Assembly (NCBI GenBank): GCA_902778665.1
Contig: CACYYN010000028.1
Location: forward strand, 1 to 34,724
Origin: Oscillospiraceae bacterium
GTDB taxonomy: Bacteria > Bacillota > Clostridia > Oscillospirales > Oscillospiraceae
Length of the DNA stretch: 34,724 nucleotides
Direction of reading: 5' to 3'
This document shows, one piece after another, positions 12,715 through 21,535 of the stretch (position 1 is its first letter; every line of letters starts with the position of its first letter). A program made the position numbers and the translations under genes. The notes below the pieces were generated by a model. That model did no database searches. It had not been told where the DNA came from and was given only the letters and a program-made list of their open reading frames with translations.

Positions 12715-13977
12715 TTACAGAATCGGGATCAGAAGGGGAACAAACACGATCATCAGGAAGACAATGATCAGACCGATCAGATAGGGCACAACGGCCTTTG
12801 CGATTTTCTCAATCGGCAGGCCGGTAATCCCTGTCGCCACAAACAGGTTGATGGCGACCGGAGGCGTGATCATGCCGATGGCAATGCCGACGACAAACAG
12901 AATGCCGAAGTGCAGCGTGGAAACGCCCAGCGCCCGCACCAGCGGCAGAAACACCGGCGTGAGGATGATGATGGCGGAGGAGGTCTCCATAAAGACGCCG
13001 GCGATCAGGATGATGACGGAGATCAGCATCATGATGATATACTTGTTCTGGGAGATGGAGAGCACGGCGTTGGCGATCGACTCCGGAATCTTCCAGTTTG
13101 CCAGCACCCAGCCGAAGGGGCCGGAGCAGGCGATGATAATCATGATGACGGCACTGGTGCGTGCAGAACCTTTCATAATCTCAAAAAGACCCTTGAGCGT
13201 CAGATCTCTGTAGATAAAGGCGGAAACCAGCACCGCGTACACCACAGCTACTGCCGCGGCTTCCGACGGGGTGAAATATCCGGAAAAGATTCCGCCCAGA
13301 ATAATCAGCGGCATCAGGATACCGGGAATTGCTCTGAAAAAGGACCTCGCGATATTGCGGAAGGAAAACCCCGTCCCCTTCGGGTAGTGGTTTTTGTAGG
13401 CCTGAACCAGCGCAATGCCGATGAGGGCAATGCCCATCAGCACGCCGGGCAGGAAGCCCGCCTTGAAAAGCCGGTTGACGCTCTCTTCCGCAATGACGGC
13501 ATAGAGCACCATGGGCACGGAGGGCGGAATCACCACGCCGATGGTACCGGCTGCGGCAATCAGTGCGGCGGCCTCCGCTTCCGGATAGCCGCGGCGCTTC
13601 AGTTCGGGAACCAGCGTTCCGCCGACGGCGGCGGTTGTCGCGGCGCCGGAGCCGGAGATAGCGGCAAAGAACATGCCCGCCAGCACCGACACCACCGACA
13701 GCCCGCCGCGAAGCACACCCAGCAGAGACTCACAGAATTCCACCAGCAGCTTGGAGATTTTCCCCTTGGAGAGAAGATCTCCCGCGAGGATAAAGAAGGG
13801 AACCGCGATCAGGGAGAAGGAATTGCAGGCCTCAAACATACGCTGAATCAGAATCAGCAGTTTTCCCTGACCAAGGCCGGAGAGCACCGTGACCCCTGCA
13901 GCGGTACAGATGGAGAAGGCGACCGGAACACCGAGCACCAGAAGCAGAATAAAGACACCAAACAGAATAAGACCCAT
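12715..13977 (-). CDS. dctM: TRAP transporter large permease DctM
   Basis: A 420-residue, highly hydrophobic membrane protein of the TRAP DctM family, the sodium-coupled transport channel. Family stretches are visible: [65 protein letters not shown] and [20 protein letters not shown]. About a dozen membrane segments are expected. Its ATG directly follows the dctQ stop (TAAATG) with GGAGG inside dctQ, so the two permease subunits are tightly coupled. ilvD follows. The substrate is unknown, though the branched-chain neighbours make a short branched carboxylate worth considering. Confidence 0.93.
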
Positions 13978-14565: not shown

Positions 14566-15552
14566 TTATGCCAGTTCAGCCTGAATACGGGCAATGTAGT
14601 CGGCATACTGGGGGTACGCATCATACACAACCTGAACAGCCTCGCGGAAGGAATTGACATCGGGGTTCTCGATTACTTCAATGCCGTTGTCCTTGATTTC
14701 CTGCAGCTGGCCGGCTTCCTTCTCGGCAACCCATGCGCGTTCATACTCGGCTGCTTCCTGAGCGGCGTTGACGAAAATCTCCTGCGTTGCCTCATCCAGG
14801 CTGTTGAAGAGGTCAAGGCTCATGGTGATGATAGCAGTGGAGTAGGAGTGGCGGTCCAGCACGCAGTATTTCTGATTGTATTCCCACATTTTGTAGGACC
14901 AGATAACATTGATGGGGTTCTCCTGGCCTTCCACGGTTCCCTGCTGGAGAGCGGTCAGCGTATCCTGCCAGTTCATGGGCACGGCATTGACGCCCAGTGC
15001 CTTGAAGGTGGCGGTGTAGATTTCATTTTCCATCACACGCAGCTTCAGCCCGGCAACGTCGGCAGCGTTTGCAACCGGCTTTACAGAGTTGGTGATATTG
15101 CGGAAGCCGCGCTCTGCGTAGGCAAGGCCCTTCAGGTTGGCATCTTCCAGCGTGTCAAGGAGCTCTTTACCGATGTCACCGTCAAGAATCTTGTAGGCTT
15201 CTTCGTTGCTCGCAAAGAGGAAGGGCATATCCAGCACGCCCATCATAGCGGAGTAGTTGACAAACGGGCCGGCGGTGATGATGCCCATGTCCAGCATCCC
15301 CATGCTCATTTGCTCCAGCATGTCGGCTTCGCCGCCCAAGGTGCCGTTGGGATAGATCTCAATAACATATTCGCCGTTGGTGCGCTCTTTGACCAGCTCG
15401 GCAAACTTTTCCGCAGCGACCTGGAAAGAGTCCTGCTCGTTAACGGTGGTGCCGAACTGGAGGGTCGTCTCGGCGCTGGCGCTGACAGCTGCGATGGAGC
15501 AGACCATCATGACGGCCAGCATCATGGCAAAGAGTTTGGTCAGTTTTTTCAT
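14566..15552 (-). CDS. dctP: TRAP transporter solute-binding protein DctP
   Basis: A 328-residue exported binding protein of the DctP family. The signal peptide is MKKLTKLFAMMLAVMMVCSI with cleavage near ASA-ET, type I rather than lipoprotein; no Cys lipobox is visible, which is slightly unusual for a Gram-positive and leaves anchoring unclear. Typical features follow: YPNGTLGGEADMLEQMSMG, the FRNITNSVKP segment, GLKLRVMENEIYTATFKALG with the carboxylate-binding Arg, and TVEGQENP. It delivers an organic acid to DctQM. GGAGA precedes the ATG, and a 125-base leader runs from the promoter at 15684-15712. Confidence 0.93.
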   Translation of the reverse strand: MKKLTKLFAMMLAVMMVCSIAAVSASAETTLQFGTTVNEQDSFQVAAEKFAELVKERTNGEYVIEIYPNGTLGGEADMLEQMSMGMLDMGIITAGPFVNYSAMMGVLDMPFLFASNEEAYKILDGDIGKELLDTLEDANLKGLAYAERGFRNITNSVKPVANAADVAGLKLRVMENEIYTATFKALGVNAVPMNWQDTLTALQQGTVEGQENPINVIWSYKMWEYNQKYCVLDRHSYSTAIITMSLDLFNSLDEATQEIFVNAAQEAAEYERAWVAEKEAGQLQEIKDNGIEVIENPDVNSFREAVQVVYDAYPQYADYIARIQAELA

Positions 15553-15800: not shown

Positions 15801-16871
15801 TCAGATCCGCTCCAGAATGGCCTGCGTCATCTCCGAGCAGGAGAGCACCTCCTGCCCGGGGCCGGCGATGTCATTGGTCCGGCAGCCGTCCCGCAGGGCT
15901 TTGTCAATGGCGGCATCAATGCAGTCCGCCTCCTGCTGCAGGCTGAAGGAATAGCGCAGCATCATCCCGGCGGAGAGAATGGTGGCGATGGGGTTGCAGC
16001 GCCCCGTGCCGGCGTATTTTGGGGCGGAGCCGTGGATGGGTTCATAGAGACCTCTTGTGCCGTCACCCAGAGAGGCGGAGGGCAGCATGCCGATGGATCC
16101 GGTGATCTGGCTTGCCTCGTCGGAGAGAATATCCCCGAACATATTGGTGGTCACCATCACATCAAACTGGGAGGGGTTGCGTACCAGCTGCTGGGCGGCA
16201 TTGTCCACCAGCATATCCTCCACGGTGACGCCCTCGTATTCCTCTGCTATCCGATGGACCACCTCACGCCAGAGCCGGGAGGTCTCCAGCACGTTCGCCT
16301 TGTCCACGCTGACCACTCTGCCGGAACGCTTCTGCGCGGCGGACATGGCAACACGTGCAATGCGCTCAATCTCCATGACGGAGTATGCCTCCGTGTCATA
16401 GGCTTCCGGGCCGAGAGGGCCGTTCCGCCTGCCGCGCTCGCCGAAGTAGATGCCGCCGGTCAGCTCCCGGACGATCAGCAGGTCAAATCCGTTTTTCACC
16501 GTGTCCGGGTGGAGAAGGCACTTGCCGATGAGGGAGGGATAGAGCTTGGCAGGACGGAGATTGGTGTAAAGCCCCATGGCCTTCCGGATGCCGAGAAGGC
16601 CCTTTTCCGGGCGGATATCAGCCGGAAGATTGTCCCATTTCGGTCCGCCGACAGCACCCAGCAGAACGGAATCTGCAGCCAGACACCCGTCCAGTGTCTC
16701 CTGCGGCAGGGGGACGCCCGTCTCATCAATGGCAATACCGCCCAACAGATATTCGCTGAAGCGGAACGTATGCCCGTATTTCTCAGCAACCTTCTGCAGA
16801 ACCTGAACGGCACTGTCAACGATTTCGGGCCCGATGCCATCTCCCTTGAGAAGCGCAATGGAAAGGTTCAT
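15801..16871 (-). CDS. leuB: 3-isopropylmalate dehydrogenase
   Basis: A 356-residue NAD-dependent decarboxylating dehydrogenase, the third enzymatic step of leucine synthesis. Visible features: LLKGDGIGPEIVDSAVQVL at the N-terminus, the substrate segment LYTNLRPAKLYP, ELTGGIYFGERG, VDKANVLETSRLWREVV, and the metal-binding NMFGDILSDEASQITGSIGM. Its ATG overlaps the leuD stop by four bases (ATGA). It is the last gene of leuACDB on the minus strand. No clear terminator is seen before the dctP promoter. Confidence 0.96.
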   Translation of the reverse strand: MNLSIALLKGDGIGPEIVDSAVQVLQKVAEKYGHTFRFSEYLLGGIAIDETGVPLPQETLDGCLAADSVLLGAVGGPKWDNLPADIRPEKGLLGIRKAMGLYTNLRPAKLYPSLIGKCLLHPDTVKNGFDLLIVRELTGGIYFGERGRRNGPLGPEAYDTEAYSVMEIERIARVAMSAAQKRSGRVVSVDKANVLETSRLWREVVHRIAEEYEGVTVEDMLVDNAAQQLVRNPSQFDVMVTTNMFGDILSDEASQITGSIGMLPSASLGDGTRGLYEPIHGSAPKYAGTGRCNPIATILSAGMMLRYSFSLQQEADCIDAAIDKALRDGCRTNDIAGPGQEVLSCSEMTQAILERI

Positions 16872-17377
16872 ACCTGTCCCTCCTTGTTCGCATTCTGCTT
16901 GTCTTTCAGATAGGACAGCAGGCCGCCGTGTGAGATGATGTTTTTAATAAAGGGCGGGAAGGCGACCGCCTGAAACTCCGCCCCGGTGGTCTCGTCTGTG
17001 ATTTTTCCGGTGTCATAGTCTACTGACACCATGTCTCCGGGCTGAATTGCCTCGGCGGCTTCCGGGCACTCCAGAATGGGGAAGCCGATGTTGATGGAAT
17101 TGCGGTAAAAGATGCGGGCAAAGCTTGCCGCTATCACACAGGAGATGCCGCTTGCCTGAATGGCGATGGGGGCGTGCTCTCTGGATGATCCGCAGCCGAA
17201 GTTCCATCCCCCGATCATGATGTCACCCTGATGAGGCTGTCCGGCAAAATCCGGGTCAATATCCTCCATGCAGTGCTTTGCCAGCTCTGTGGGGGAAGGA
17301 GCATTGAGGTAACGGGCGGGGATGATAACATCGGTGTCAATATTGTTGCCGTATTTCAAAGCTTTTCCGGTAACCAT
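16868..17377 (-). CDS. leuD: 3-isopropylmalate dehydratase small subunit
   Basis: A 169-residue small subunit of isopropylmalate isomerase. It has the swivelling-domain hallmarks: KYGNNIDTDVIIPARYL near the start, GGWNFGCGSSREHAPIAI around residues 57-75 and a RIFYRNSINIGFPIL segment. It pairs with LeuC. The start at 17377 follows AGGAGGG seven bases upstream; an ATG 12 codons earlier lacks one and would overlap leuC. It overlaps leuB by four bases. Confidence 0.95.
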   Translation of the reverse strand: MVTGKALKYGNNIDTDVIIPARYLNAPSPTELAKHCMEDIDPDFAGQPHQGDIMIGGWNFGCGSSREHAPIAIQASGISCVIAASFARIFYRNSINIGFPILECPEAAEAIQPGDMVSVDYDTGKITDETTGAEFQAVAFPPFIKNIISHGGLLSYLKDKQNANKEGQV

Positions 17378-17390
17378 GATTTGTCCCTCC

Positions 17391-18650
17391 TTAAAGATCT
17401 TCCGGCGAAGCAAGGCAGCCTTTTACGGCGCTTGCTGCGGCAATGGCAGGAGAGGCGAGAATCACTTCACTCTCCGTGTGGCCCATTCTGCCGACGAAGT
17501 TCCGGTTCGTGGTGGAAACCGCTCGCTCGCCCTCGGCGAGGCACCCCATATGCCCGCCCAGGCACGGCCCGCAGGTGGGCACAGAGAACACACACCCGGC
17601 CTCGAGGAAGGTTTCAGTCAGGCCCTCCTTCAGGCACTGCATGCTGACATCCTGCGTGGCGGGGATCACAATACAGCGAATTCCCGGGGCAACCTTTCTG
17701 CCCTTGAGCAGGGAAGCGGCACACCGCAGGTCTGAAATGCGGCCGTTGGTGCAGGAGCCGATCACCACCTGGTCAATCGGCATGCCCTTCACCTCGTCAA
17801 TGGTGCGCGTGTTGGAGGGGAGATGCGGCAGGGAGACCGTGGGCTTCAGCTCACTAAGGTCAATTGTGACAACGGATGTGTACTGCGCGTCGGAGTCCGC
17901 TTCATAGACAGTCCAGGGCCGGTTTACTCGTTTTGAAATATATTCAACGGTTTTTTCATCCACCGGGAAGATCCCGTTCTTGGCTCCTGCCTCAATTGCC
18001 ATATTGGCGATGGTGAAGCGGTCGTCCATGCCGAGCTCGGCAACGCCCGGTCCGGTGAATTCCAGTGACTGATAGAGAGCGCCGTCCACCCCGATCTGAC
18101 CGATCAGATGGAGAATTACATCTTTTCCGGTGATCCATTTTCCGGGCTTGCCGGTTAAAACCACCTGTATGGCGGAAGGCACCTTGAACCAGTTTTCTCC
18201 GGAGGCCATCCCGGCTGCCATATCGGTGGAGCCGACGCCGGTGGAAAATGCGCCCAGTGCGCCGTAGGTGCAGGTGTGGCTGTCTGCCCCGATGATCAGC
18301 TCACCCGGCGCGGCAAGGCCCTTTTCCGGCAGCAATGCGTGCTCAATGCCGGCCTGACCCACATCATAGAAGTGGGTTATTGCATGTTCTTTTGCAAATT
18401 CACGGGCTGTTTTGCACAGCTGTGCCGACTTGATGTCTTTGCAGGGGGTGTAATGGTCCAGGACGATGGCAATTTTGTCTTTATCGAATATGTCGGTGAA
18501 TCCGGTGTCACGAAAAACCTTTATGGCGACAGGGGTCGTCACGTCATTGCCCAGAACAAGATCCAGCTTCGCCTCAATCAGTTCTCCTGCCTTAACGGAG
18601 GGGAGATTGGCGTGGGCGGCCAGAATCTTCTGTGTCATCGTCATACCCAT
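17391..18650 (-). CDS. leuC: 3-isopropylmalate dehydratase large subunit
   Basis: A 419-residue aconitase-superfamily large subunit, the two-subunit type shared with homoaconitase. It has [47 protein letters not shown] and [10 protein letters not shown]; the Cys in the last two and in HTCTYG are cluster ligands. It isomerises 2- to 3-isopropylmalate with LeuD. The length (about 420) matches the archaeal/clostridial form, not the roughly 470-residue enterobacterial form. AGGAGG sits eight bases before the first of three close ATG codons. It starts just after the leuA stop. Confidence 0.95.
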
Positions 18651-18653
18651 GGG

Positions 18654-20189
18654 TTATTCCTCCTTTTTGGCTGTGGCGGCGCAAAGTTTGTTGACCGCCG
18701 TGATGTATGCAATAATGCTGGCCTCCATCACGTCGGTGGAAAGCCCCTTCCCGGTGTAGGACCGGCCGTCTGCGATCAGCTTCACGGTGACATCGCCGAG
18801 CGTGTCTTTGCCCTGGGAGACCGAGTGGATGTTATAGATGTCAAAGGTGTGCTCCACCGGCTTGACAATGCTGTCAATGGCGTTGAAGGCGGCGTCAATC
18901 GGCCCGTCGCCCAGGCGCACATCCTCAAACTTTTCACCGTCCTTTTCCAGGCTGACGGTGCAGGTTGCAGTGGTGAAGTTGGAGGTGTGAAGGGAGAACC
19001 AGTTCAGGCGGTATCCGGTTTCTTCCACGTCCTCATCTGCCCGGATGCGGTGCTCTGCGATAGCCTCCAGATCCGCATCGGTGATATTTTTCTTTTTGTC
19101 GCAGAGATCCTTGAACTCGGCAAAGCAGCTGAGAAGCTCCTCTCTTGTGAGGTTGTATCCCAATGCCTTGAGCCGCTCCTCCACCGCATGCTTGCCGGAA
19201 TGCTTCCCGAGGACAATGTTGTTGGTGTGGATGCCCAGTGCCTCCGGGGTCATAATTTCGTAGGTTTCCTTGTTTGCCAGCACACCATGCTGATGGATGC
19301 CGGACTCGTGGGCAAAGGCATTGCGCCCGACGATCGGCTTGTTGAGGGGTGCGGTCTGGCCAATGATGTTGTAGACCGTTCTGCTGGTGCGGGCGATCTG
19401 CGTGGCGTCAATGCGCGTGGTGTAGGGATAAATGCCGGGGCGGGTGCGCATTGCCATAACCACCTCTTCCAGTGCGGTGTTGCCTGCCCGCTCACCGAGG
19501 CCGTTTACCGTGCACTCAATCTGCCGCGCCCCACCCAGCACACCGGCGAGGGAATTGGCCGTTGCCATGCCCAGATCATTGTGGCAGTGCACGGAGAAGA
19601 CGGCTTTGTCACTGTCAGGCACCTTTTCCCGCAGGTATGTGATCAGATCCCGCATTTCCGAAGGGGTTGTATAGCCCACCGTGTCGGGAATATTTACGGT
19701 GGTGGCTCCTGCGCGGATAGCAGCATCCACAATCTTCACCAGAAAATCCCAGTCGGACCGGGTGGCGTCCTCGGCGGAAAACTCCACATCGCTGCAGTAC
19801 TTCTTCGCATGAGCGGTCATGGCGAAGGTGGTTTCCAGCACCTGTTCCGGGGTCATCTTCAGTTTGTATTGCATATGCACGGGGCTTGTGGCGAGAAACA
19901 GGTGGATCCGCGGAGCGGCAGCGCTTTTTACAGCGTCCCATGCCGTGTCAATATCCAGCTTGCTGGCTCTTGCCAGAGAGGCGACGCTGCAGTCCTTCAC
20001 GGTTTCCGCGATCGTCTTCACCGATTCAAAATCACCGGGAGAGGAGATGGCGAATCCCGCCTCTATAATGTCCACCTTCATTCTTTCCAGGCACCGCGCT
20101 ATTTCAATCTTCTCCTTGAGATTCATGGAGCATCCGGGGGATTGTTCACCGTCCCGCAGGGTGGTGTCAAATATGACGAGCTGATCCAT
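18654..20189 (-). CDS. leuA: 2-isopropylmalate synthase
   Basis: A 511-residue LeuA, which condenses acetyl-CoA with 2-oxoisovalerate, the committed step to leucine. The N-terminal DRE-TIM barrel carries FDTTLRDGEQSPGCSMNLKE and the metal-binding HCHNDLGMATANSLAG, with NGLGERAGNTALEEVVMAM. The C-terminal third is the leucine-sensing regulatory domain (VRLGDGPIDAAFNAIDSI, then VTVKLIADGRSYTGKGLSTD). It is the first gene of leuACDB, behind a 315-base leader with an attenuator. AAAGGAA lies upstream of the ATG. Confidence 0.96.
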   Translation of the reverse strand: MDQLVIFDTTLRDGEQSPGCSMNLKEKIEIARCLERMKVDIIEAGFAISSPGDFESVKTIAETVKDCSVASLARASKLDIDTAWDAVKSAAAPRIHLFLATSPVHMQYKLKMTPEQVLETTFAMTAHAKKYCSDVEFSAEDATRSDWDFLVKIVDAAIRAGATTVNIPDTVGYTTPSEMRDLITYLREKVPDSDKAVFSVHCHNDLGMATANSLAGVLGGARQIECTVNGLGERAGNTALEEVVMAMRTRPGIYPYTTRIDATQIARTSRTVYNIIGQTAPLNKPIVGRNAFAHESGIHQHGVLANKETYEIMTPEALGIHTNNIVLGKHSGKHAVEERLKALGYNLTREELLSCFAEFKDLCDKKKNITDADLEAIAEHRIRADEDVEETGYRLNWFSLHTSNFTTATCTVSLEKDGEKFEDVRLGDGPIDAAFNAIDSIVKPVEHTFDIYNIHSVSQGKDTLGDVTVKLIADGRSYTGKGLSTDVMEASIIAYITAVNKLCAATAKKEE

Positions 20190-20259
20190 CGCTTGTGACG
20201 TTTCCTTTCTTCACGATTGAGTTTGTCGGGATGATTGCTTTCTGTCGCATCTGAGCGGG

Positions 20260-20300
20260 AAAATAAAAACCGTGCGATCCGAAAAGTCAGATCACACGGT
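20260..20300 (-). terminator. Attenuator terminator in the leuA leader
   Basis: Read on the minus strand: a 14-bp stem (ACCGTGTGATCTGA with TCGGATCGCACGGT, two G-U pairs), loop CTTT, then TTTTATTTT. It lies 70 bases before leuA and inside its own transcript, since no other minus-strand gene reads in. Its apex TGACTTTTCG (20280-20289) is exactly complementary to CGAAAAGTCA in the leader peptide gene (20396-20405), a possible antiterminator pairing. Confidence 0.88.
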
Positions 20301-20387
20301 GACAGAAACAGGATTGGGACAACCGGATGGTTCCGATTGCGGGTCTTCCGATCCGGAAAGCCCGGGAATTTTTTGCTTCACCCGTAT

Positions 20388-20480
20388 TCAGAACATGACT
20401 TTTCGCACTATCTCTCCGCCGGTAAGTCGCAGAGAAATAGCGCCGGTAAGCATCAGAATGTTCTGAACGGCAAGAACCAT
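20388..20480 (-). CDS. Leucine-operon leader peptide
   Basis: A 30-residue open frame (ATG at 20480, TGA at 20388) with GAGG seven bases upstream, beginning 24 bases after the predicted transcription start. It contains five Leu, four Val and three Ile, starting MVLAVQNILML. Within it, 20429-20440 and 20408-20419 form a 12-bp hairpin with two G-U pairs. Codons 26-28 supply the antiterminator strand, eight bases before the stop. A ribosome that finishes would cover that strand and let the terminator form; one stalled on Leu/Ile codons 9-19 would leave it free. Coding status is inferred from layout and composition. Confidence 0.72.
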   Translation of the reverse strand: MVLAVQNILMLTGAISLRLTGGEIVRKVMF

Positions 20481-20510
20481 GAGAAAACCTCATACATAAA
20501 AGTTGTGCTG

Positions 20511-20539
20511 AGTTTAACACACGATAGATGGATTGTCAA
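20511..20539 (-). promoter_or_regulatory. Promoter of the leuACDB operon
   Basis: On the minus strand TTGACA (20534-20539), an exact 17-base spacer, TAAACT (20511-20516). Transcription should start near 20504, giving a leader of about 315 bases. Further upstream, CCCAAATT and AATTTGGG flank 20552-20588 as an inverted repeat that might end the AEC transporter transcript. Confidence 0.85.
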
Positions 20540-20596
20540 TTAACAGATTACCCAAATTCAGACTGGTAAAAGAAGCCAAATTTGGGCAGGACACCA

Positions 20597-21535
20597 TCAG
20601 AATGCACCGAGATTGCGGAAAAGCACACACCAGAAAAACAATGTGAAGCAGGAGAGAATAGACGTCATCACCACAATATCTCCGGCCAGATCCGCATCGC
20701 CCCCCATCTGCTGGCTCATGGTGAAGGAGGAGACGGCAGCGGAGGAGGCAAAAACAGAGATCAGCGCTGCAAACTCCATGCCGCGAAAACCCAACAGATA
20801 TCCGGCTGTCAGAAAAACGGCAGGATTAATGATCAGTTTGAATACGGTGACGGCGGTGATCTGCTTCGCAAATTTTGCAAGGGTGTCAAAATGGAAGAAT
20901 GCGCCCAGCAGAAACAGCATGACCGGAGAAGCCGCGCCGGCCATGGAGGTGATTGCTTTTTCTACACTCTCGGGAAAACGGATCTTCAATACTAGACACA
21001 CCACGCCCGCCGCTGTTGCAAGGATCAGCGGGTTTTTGACAATGCGCAGCAGCACATCCTTCGGCCGCACATTGTCTCCTCCGTAAAGAGAAAGGGCAAT
21101 CACGGCCAGAATATTAAATTCCGGTATGACCACTGCGCCGAGAATGGCCACGGGAGCAATATCTTCATAAGGGACCAGTACGCTGGCAATAGACATGCCG
21201 ATCAGGGTGAAATTGGAACGGAAAATACCCTGAATGATAACACCTTTCTGGTTTCTGCGTGTGGCAGTCACTTTTGCGACTGCAAGGCCGAAGAGAAACT
21301 CTGCCAGAACCCCCAGCACGGTGTAGAGCATCAGCCTGGGTTTGACGGCTGTGCTCAGGTCGGAAGAGTAAACAGCCTGAAAAACACTCAGCGCAAGAAA
21401 AACGTTGAAGACAACTTTGTTAAACCGGCCGACATCCCTGTCGTCCAGCAAATTGCGCACCTTGGCAAGGTATCCAACTGCCATGTAGATGAACAGCGGC
21501 AGCACCGCATTCAGGCTGATCTGAAAGCTTTCCAT
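20597..21535 (-). CDS. AEC family transporter
   Basis: A 312-residue membrane protein of the auxin-efflux-carrier (AEC) family, with about ten hydrophobic segments in two halves. It starts NAVLPLFIYMAVGYLAKVRNLLDD, has the family-typical NKVVFNVFLALSVFQAVY and GIFRSNFTLIGMSIASVLV, and ends with SSAAVSSFTMSQQMGGDADLAG. Bacterial members export or exchange small carboxylates such as malate or amino acids. It follows the D-2-hydroxyacid dehydrogenase gene by 79 bases on the same strand, so it may carry that enzyme's substrate or product. AGGAG precedes the ATG. Confidence 0.9.
   Translation of the reverse strand: MESFQISLNAVLPLFIYMAVGYLAKVRNLLDDRDVGRFNKVVFNVFLALSVFQAVYSSDLSTAVKPRLMLYTVLGVLAEFLFGLAVAKVTATRRNQKGVIIQGIFRSNFTLIGMSIASVLVPYEDIAPVAILGAVVIPEFNILAVIALSLYGGDNVRPKDVLLRIVKNPLILATAAGVVCLVLKIRFPESVEKAITSMAGAASPVMLFLLGAFFHFDTLAKFAKQITAVTVFKLIINPAVFLTAGYLLGFRGMEFAALISVFASSAAVSSFTMSQQMGGDADLAGDIVVMTSILSCFTLFFWCVLFRNLGAF

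Follow-up and report, generated by a model that had tools for sequence, protein, structure and literature searches.

The window, the 34,724-nucleotide stretch of DNA analyzed here, is one contig of a draft genome (79 contigs, 84% complete) of an Oscillospiraceae bacterium, and carries leuACDB directly 3' of a leader transcribed from the minus strand. The features of the leader and operon, all on the minus strand, are as follows in the order in which they are transcribed.

20534 to 20539, minus strand: promoter −35 element TTGACA, from the sequence
20511 to 20516, minus strand: promoter −10 element TAAACT, separated from the −35 element by a 17-nt spacer, from the sequence
20488 to 20492, minus strand: Shine–Dalgarno-like TGAGG of the leader frame, 7 nt 5' of the ATG at 20480, from the sequence
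20388 to 20480, minus strand: leader peptide frame MVLAVQNILMLTGAISLRLTGGEIVRKVMF, 30 codons, stop at 20390-20388, Leu, Ile, or Val at 12 of 30 residues
20459 to 20468, minus strand: outer helix P1, 5' strand, partner 20386-20395, from RNAfold
20429 to 20443, minus strand: internal hairpin P2, 5' strand, from RNAfold and covariation
20405 to 20419, minus strand: internal hairpin P2, 3' strand, from RNAfold and covariation
20396 to 20405, minus strand: putative antiterminator strand CGAAAAGUCA (DNA CGAAAAGTCA at 20405-20396), exact complement of the terminator apex
20386 to 20395, minus strand: outer helix P1, 3' strand, directly after the 10-mer, from RNAfold
20301 to 20387, minus strand: linker with two predicted hairpins, from RNAfold
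20269 to 20300, minus strand: predicted intrinsic terminator hairpin, 14 bp (with G-U), 4-nt loop CUUU, from sequence, fold, and covariation
20280 to 20289, minus strand: apical target UGACUUUUCG, the loop plus three bases on each side (DNA TGACTTTTCG at 20289-20280), from the sequence
20260 to 20268, minus strand: U tract TTTTATTTT, 3' of the terminator hairpin, from the sequence
18654 to 20189, minus strand: leuA, 2-isopropylmalate synthase (NCBIfam TIGR00973, NF002086)
17391 to 18650, minus strand: leuC (TIGR02083)
16868 to 17413, minus strand: leuD (TIGR02084 just below the cut-off, TIGR02087 above it)
15801 to 16871, minus strand: leuB (TIGR00169)

TRAP transporter genes lie 3' of the operon (12715-13977 and 14566-15552, minus strand), and a gene weakly resembling an auxin efflux carrier lies 5' of it (20597-21535, minus strand).

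The promoter, the 30-codon frame, and its 12 Leu, Ile, and Val residues, all claimed in a first-pass annotation of this DNA, were re-read on the minus strand, and the 14-bp terminator with its T-run before leuA was confirmed by sequence and by RNAfold. As judged from sequence, the window holds the parts of a candidate leader-peptide attenuator, that is, a short frame rich in end-product codons behind a promoter and a Shine–Dalgarno element, and a predicted intrinsic terminator between this frame and the first structural gene. Promoters are found in the same place in relatives (TTGACA-17-TAGTAT in genome G020 and TTGACA-17-TATAGT in G623). The internal hairpin, originally given as 12 bp, is larger in the RNAfold structure, where it comprises 15 bp (20443-20429 with 20419-20405) and is accompanied by the outer helix, P1, which shows a paired A-U to G-C change in G020. 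Ile and Leu codons sit within the P2 5' strand and just 5' of it. The reported lack of tandem Leu codons holds for the window, which has Leu-Met-Leu, and not for its close relatives, which have tandem Leu (NLLLTG). The 10-nt exact complement between 20396-20405 and 20280-20289 stands as described, and 0 of 400 dinucleotide shuffles of the leader reach it (p = 1/401). The locus is best read, as first proposed, as an attenuator with a leader peptide and a pairing that involves the terminator loop; its 10-mers are kept in relatives and covary in distant leaders.

A covariance search found no T-box, the motif that the first-pass annotation had named as speaking against its own reading, either at the gathering score in the window or at E ≤ 10 within 20100-20700. 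No Rfam family reaches the gathering score in the window or in 15 related loci. Weak subthreshold Rfam rows within 20100-20700, including LhrC (E 5.5) and CRISPR-DR45 (E 0.008), were taken as chance; the latter covers 20101-20124 inside leuA and is probably fortuitous. A ligand-binding riboswitch, or a protein-binding leader that operates without ribosome stalling, would be compatible with the strong folding of this conserved RNA (z = −5.5 versus shuffles, RNAfold) and with the fact that part of the frame is not conserved. We regard such a device as very unlikely given the lack of an Rfam match at the gathering score, the Ile/Leu/Val-codon frames that precede the strand in the 30 leaders modeled below (with the fewest such codons in the ilvB leader of the source genome), and the many paired versions in which strand and loop occur, unlike a ligand pocket.

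A leuA match (E ≤ 1e-35) is found in five of 102 genomes of the genus, namely the source genome, G020, G024, G337, and G348, and the leader is present in all five. Leucine synthesis looks sporadic in the genus, although many of the 102 genomes are incomplete. The 10-mers, which were expected to persist in close relatives, are kept in the four other leuA genomes, with ten Watson–Crick pairs in three of them and nine plus one G-U pair in the fourth. The peptide, whose conservation was expected as well, is not conserved to the end of the frame, whereas the nucleotides of the 10-mer are kept. In the alignment, a 1-nt shift ahead of the antiterminator strand separates the window frame from that of its relatives, which read ...NSAKSHAL... 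or similar where the window ends ...GEIVRKVMF; the 10-mer stretch is read in another frame in RUG311, and in G605 the leader stop codon precedes it. Because of the 1-nt shift in the window, it is the RNA rather than the C-terminal peptide that is conserved, and selection on that peptide (NSAKSHA) was set aside, the nucleotides but not the frame being kept in the window, RUG311, and G605.

To place the leader in a wider context, a covariance model derived from 13 leuA leaders was searched against 400 genomes of the family. At E ≤ 0.001, this search gives 14 matches from 12 genomes, with 13 of the matches before leuA or ilvB (the exception is in G724); one of these 13 is a second copy of the leader before the ilvB gene of the source genome itself. 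This copy (L171:866-1064, contig C6) is shortened, with a P2 that appears degraded by eye, and the ilvB frame is split into two pieces of 134 and 246 aa, reflecting either decay or an error in the draft. Among family matches at E about 1e-3 or worse, L154 (G311) is a real ilvB leader, whereas L152, L153, L155, and L173 look like chance; matches of the same quality in G484 and G758 are real ilvB leaders by position. The order-level search (335 genomes) reveals ten carriers at E ≤ 0.001 distributed over five families. Eight of these loci fall outside the family, seven before ilvB and one before leuA as judged by the resemblance of the downstream frame; taken singly, they are weak in the shuffle test (p from 0.01 to 0.57), and 8 to 10 of 10 positions pair in registers set by hand. 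A search with the fixed pattern GAAAAGTC..TGACTTTTC returned matches in nine of 295 order genomes and was abandoned, as the matched letters identify the leader in the source genome alone.

Several leaders are unusual in arrangement. Members of genus g168 harbor tandem attenuators before leuA (L130, L135, L136, L137, and L138), both of which comprise a frame rich in Ile, Leu, and Val and a terminator; the loop match of the second attenuator was tested and that of the first judged by eye. Genome G585 has closely similar leaders before both leuA and ilvB (L122 and L172), which suggests that the attenuator was copied between operons. In Synergistaceae, short Leu/Ala-rich frames followed by terminator-like hairpins (by eye) precede leuA at L042 and L044, possibly representing another type of attenuator.

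The gene ilvB is present in 206 of the 400 family genomes; 80 ilvB upstream regions from these genomes were included, together with 30 further such regions. A total of 161 leuA/ilvB upstream regions was screened, and a terminator-like hairpin is found in 124. Of 67 regions without a T-box pattern, 21 show complementarity between apex and leader by the shuffle test (p < 0.01), versus 0 of 57 with a broad T-box pattern; the 21 count one genome twice (L016 and L113) and include close relatives as well as L214. The last of these passes without a recognized leader and was taken as chance. The broad T-box pattern occurs in 68 of the 161 regions and the attenuator in others, in genomes of the family and elsewhere. 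T-box patterns occupy the sites before ilvB or leuA in sister genomes, whereas no T-box was found in the window; the control system, T-box or attenuator, is swapped before the same genes.

The strand and apex sequences reveal how the two elements change together. The window pair CGAAAAGUCA/UGACUUUUCG becomes UGAAAAGUCA/UGACUUUUCA in G348, with a C-G to U-A double change. The ilvB leader of the source genome has CAAAAAGUCA/UGACUUUUUG, with a G-C to A-U double change, and the G134 version, CCAAAAGCUA/CAGCUUUUGG, has three double changes and one mismatch. Genus g31 harbors eight target versions among nine genomes, including strand/apex versions CUAAAUGUUA/UAACGUUUAG, CCAAACGUCG/UGACGUUUGG, and CAAUUAGUCA/UGACUGAUUG; the corresponding pairs are GGUUUUGCCU/AGGUGAAACC in g168 and GAUUUGCGUU/GGCGCAAAUC in G428. 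In pairing registers chosen by eye, so that the numbers lean in favor, 320 of 340 strand–apex positions pair over 34 leaders, and 230 of 250 pair over 25 distinct pairs versus 157.9 ± 8.4 with permuted partners (reached by 0 of 20,000 permutations). Genus g31 alone gives 73 of 80 paired positions versus 58.8 ± 4.1 (4 of 20,000). Weak partners are those of G506 (6 of 10 positions paired), G478 (7), and G605, G642, and G432 (8 each).

When the register is left free within segments of 17-18 nt around the hand-set sites, the duplex energy over 42 leaders is −15.3 versus −8.9 ± 0.5 kcal/mol for permuted partners (0 of 20,000), and no other partner beats a leader's own in 10 of the 42. When the free-register analysis is confined to the five distinct pairs from the order-level search, they are indistinguishable from permutation (1320 of 20,000). 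Fixing the columns by the model (29 loci as input, 12 usable pairs that are distinct) leaves a small excess of pairing, 94 of 120 versus 89.9 ± 1.2 (21 of 20,000), and in a whole-leader swap test 6 of 23 targets have their own partner as the single best one. Within alignment A3, with its 12 distinct leuA leaders, the 10-mer helix is nearly invariant, with one pair changed on both sides and a percentage paired that is reached by 29 of 500 shuffles. Because this helix hardly varies in A3, the comparative case rests on the wider, hand-registered sets; the covariation that the first-pass annotation sought in the 10-mers is thus seen in wider leader sets, with near invariance in the 12 closest. In those 12 leaders, changes on both sides are seen at 7 of 11 P2 consensus pairs and at 10 of 14 pairs of the terminator stem, together 17 of 25 (0 of 500 shuffles), for a structure predicted from the same alignment. 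The notion that the complement arose by chance and has no function draws on the fact that it comprises just ten nucleotides in the window; the shuffle tests, the paired changes, the free-register duplex energies, and the similar placement in five families leave it with next to no probability.

We next consider which part of the terminator is engaged. In a textbook attenuator, the antiterminator competes for the 5' arm of the terminator, and the loop match would simply be the most visible part of this interaction. Apex-only tests were carried out with 31 of the 34 leaders, leaving out the weak G506, G478, and G432. The 10-mer duplexes are far better than permuted ones (native −10.4, permuted −4.38), whereas in the same 31 leaders there is no excess for the leader 3' flank paired with the terminator 5' arm (native −5.31, permuted −5.65) or for the P2 3' strand paired with the terminator 3' arm (native −3.82, permuted −4.26). 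Likewise, the linker (20304-20395 in the window) pairs with the 5' arm no better than do shuffled linkers (mean z +0.57, 31 leaders) and worse than permuted linkers, with 2999 of 3000 permutations lower; the mean z for apex versus leader is −2.88. These permutation and shuffle tests thus give no conserved pairing with the terminator 5' arm of the kind expected of a textbook 2:3 antiterminator. Position +1 beyond the 10-mer is almost never paired (3 of 30), although +2, +4, and +6 pair often (24, 20, and 20 of 30), a point in favor of competition for the arm.

Folds truncated after the loop are relevant here as well. In 29 leaders, the apical target is occupied at 0.76 (by any upstream base) and the 5' arm at 0.55 on average, the latter a value that competition for the arm could also produce; the 5' arm finds some partner in these folds, with no conservation of that partner evident from the permutation tests. 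Six E. coli attenuators, folded in the same truncated manner with the ribosome at the control codons, serve as controls. Five of the six have an arm occupancy of 0.45-0.73 and a loop occupancy of 0.03-0.20, unlike the leaders here, while the his control also uses its loop (0.57). In most g31 leaders, the target forms a long loop that leaves the arm out, whereas in g168 and G428 the target takes in part of the 5' arm. On balance, we find it rather unlikely that these leaders operate by textbook competition for the 5' arm.

We consider it probable that the window harbors a ribosome-mediated transcription attenuator of leuACDB with an antiterminator directed at the terminator apex. The analysis supports this assignment through the parts present, their conservation, the paired changes, the complementarity restricted to the apex, and the predicted effect of ribosome stalling. 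The last of these was modeled by folding the RNA downstream of the ribosome, truncated at the target, for 30 of the 34 leaders (G506, G478, G432, and G642 left out). Of 573 A-site codons at which a stall is predicted to free the strand (P ≥ 0.5), 299 encode Ile, Leu, or Val, compared with 123 of the 514 other codons (Fisher p = 7e-22), in line with the first-pass proposal that a stall on Leu/Ile codons would release it. Mean target occupancy in the Ile/Leu/Val stalls is at least 0.63 in 28 of 29 leaders, with G605 at 0.38.

The positions of the strand and stop codon further define the model. The strand starts 66-96 nt from the start codon in the modeled leaders and 49 nt from it in the ilvB leader of the source genome. 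The stop codon lies +5 to +41 nt from the 3' end of the strand, apart from three leaders at −15 to −19 and the source genome's ilvB leader at +103. A ribosome at the stop would be close enough to hide the strand, as first proposed, in the window (+5 nt), whereas the stop lies 7 to 103 nt beyond the strand in 26 of the 30 modeled leaders, so that refolding of the leader hairpin would have to help in most of them. When no ribosome is present, 18 of 30 leaders have a strand–apex pairing probability below 0.2, while in the window it reaches 1.00; because the window strand pairs with the apex even then, either its default state differs or the model is incomplete.

In the mechanism that we propose, the leader frame would be translated as RNA polymerase copies the linker. 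When charged tRNA-Leu/Ile/Val is scarce, the ribosome would stall on Leu/Ile/Val codons in and around the 5' strands of P1 and P2, so that neither helix would close and the strand CGAAAAGUCA, just behind P2, would remain free. It could then pair with UGACUUUUCG once the terminator 5' arm and loop have been transcribed, and the occupied loop would hinder nucleation and closure of the terminator, allowing transcription to continue into leuA. When amino acids are plentiful, the ribosome would reach the stop codon; in the window it would sit on or beside the strand, and in most relatives it would have moved past, where P1 and P2 could close over the strand. With the strand hidden, the loop would be free and the terminator would form. 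We infer the identity of the amino acid sensed, the prevention of termination by pairing, and the way in which a loop-only duplex would defeat a 14-bp stem; because the 10-bp strand–apex duplex (−11.7 kcal/mol) is weaker than the terminator by itself (−22.0 kcal/mol), the effect would have to be kinetic.

Pairing of the loop might have the opposite consequence, with a pseudoknot that stabilizes or positions the terminator and so aids termination, or might affect RNA stability once termination has occurred. Closure of the stem around a paired loop is possible in principle, and we infer, rather than see, antitermination by loop pairing in our main reading. Stalls at Ile, Leu, and Val codons are predicted to free the strand, however, and a biosynthetic operon that terminated more often under starvation would be regulated in the wrong direction; furthermore, a fully paired 10-nt loop would be expected to strain the stem. 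Such a role for the pairing therefore seems quite improbable.

Beyond the apex-directed attenuator of the window, the same design precedes leuA or ilvB in members of five families of the order, which makes the finding wider than a single locus. We lean toward a subclass of attenuators in which antitermination occurs by capture of the terminator apical loop alone, and which would stand in for T-boxes upstream of ilvB and leuA across parts of a single order of Clostridia. In such a subclass, the stem would stand outside the contest and be free to drift, while lock-and-key versions of the loop would diverge between operons and stack in tandem, as before leuA in g168. These leaders would represent a second control system for branched-chain amino acid (BCAA) genes in Clostridia, beside T-boxes. 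They also make possible a clean test of whether loop occupancy during transcription can disarm an intrinsic terminator, for which many natural key-and-loop pairs are available.

The attenuators of the E. coli leu, ilv, thr, his, trp, and phe operons combine a frame rich in end-product codons, alternative structures, and a terminator before the first gene, with the choice between structures dependent on ribosome stalling. The leader described here has the same short frame, alternative structures, terminator, and stall logic. In the E. coli attenuators, the antiterminator covers the 5' arm of the terminator, whereas the complementarity conserved in the present leaders does not extend beyond the apex. 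We read the logic as that of known ribosome-mediated attenuation and the geometry of the antiterminator as different. In the literature searched, mostly outside subscription papers, we recognized no description of a terminator-loop-directed antiterminator in a leader-peptide attenuator.

The accessible parts of several papers describe related systems. In Bacillota, ribosome-mediated BCAA attenuation is supported by mutants for Rli60 before ilvD of Listeria monocytogenes; its 13-aa peptide is followed by a 2:3 antiterminator and a 3:4 terminator as in the textbook case, in contrast to the apex-directed pairing here (PMC5864092). Leader-peptide attenuation of a BCAA gene has also been reported, with mutants, for ilvD of Staphylococcus aureus, which likewise has a Leu/Ile-rich peptide, a terminator, and an antiterminator predicted to form without disrupting the terminator stem–loop; the predicted partner of the freed motif is the poly-U tail in S. 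aureus and the loop in the leaders studied here (PMC5794164). Leader peptides in place of T-boxes have been reported in Firmicutes before hisS (PMC2965389), and weak riboswitch candidates include the ilvD motif of Veillonella and the ilvB motif of Leptospira (PMC8632094). The three-hairpin attenuator of Corynebacterium glutamicum ilvBNC resembles our leaders in having an anti-antiterminator, an antiterminator, and a terminator, and in controlling an ilvB operon (PMC11857589). The LEU element of Actinobacteria likewise couples a Leu-codon leader frame to a pseudoknot before leuA, although its base stem involves the leuA Shine–Dalgarno sequence and the accessible text describes no pairing with a terminator loop (PMC1262725). 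Loop contacts decide transcription attenuation in pT181-type antisense systems as well, where they are made by an antisense RNA in trans and involve no leader peptide in the account available (PMC3753616). Finally, textbook attenuation is a choice between two hairpins that share an arm, whereas the comparative evidence presented here puts the choice at the terminator loop.
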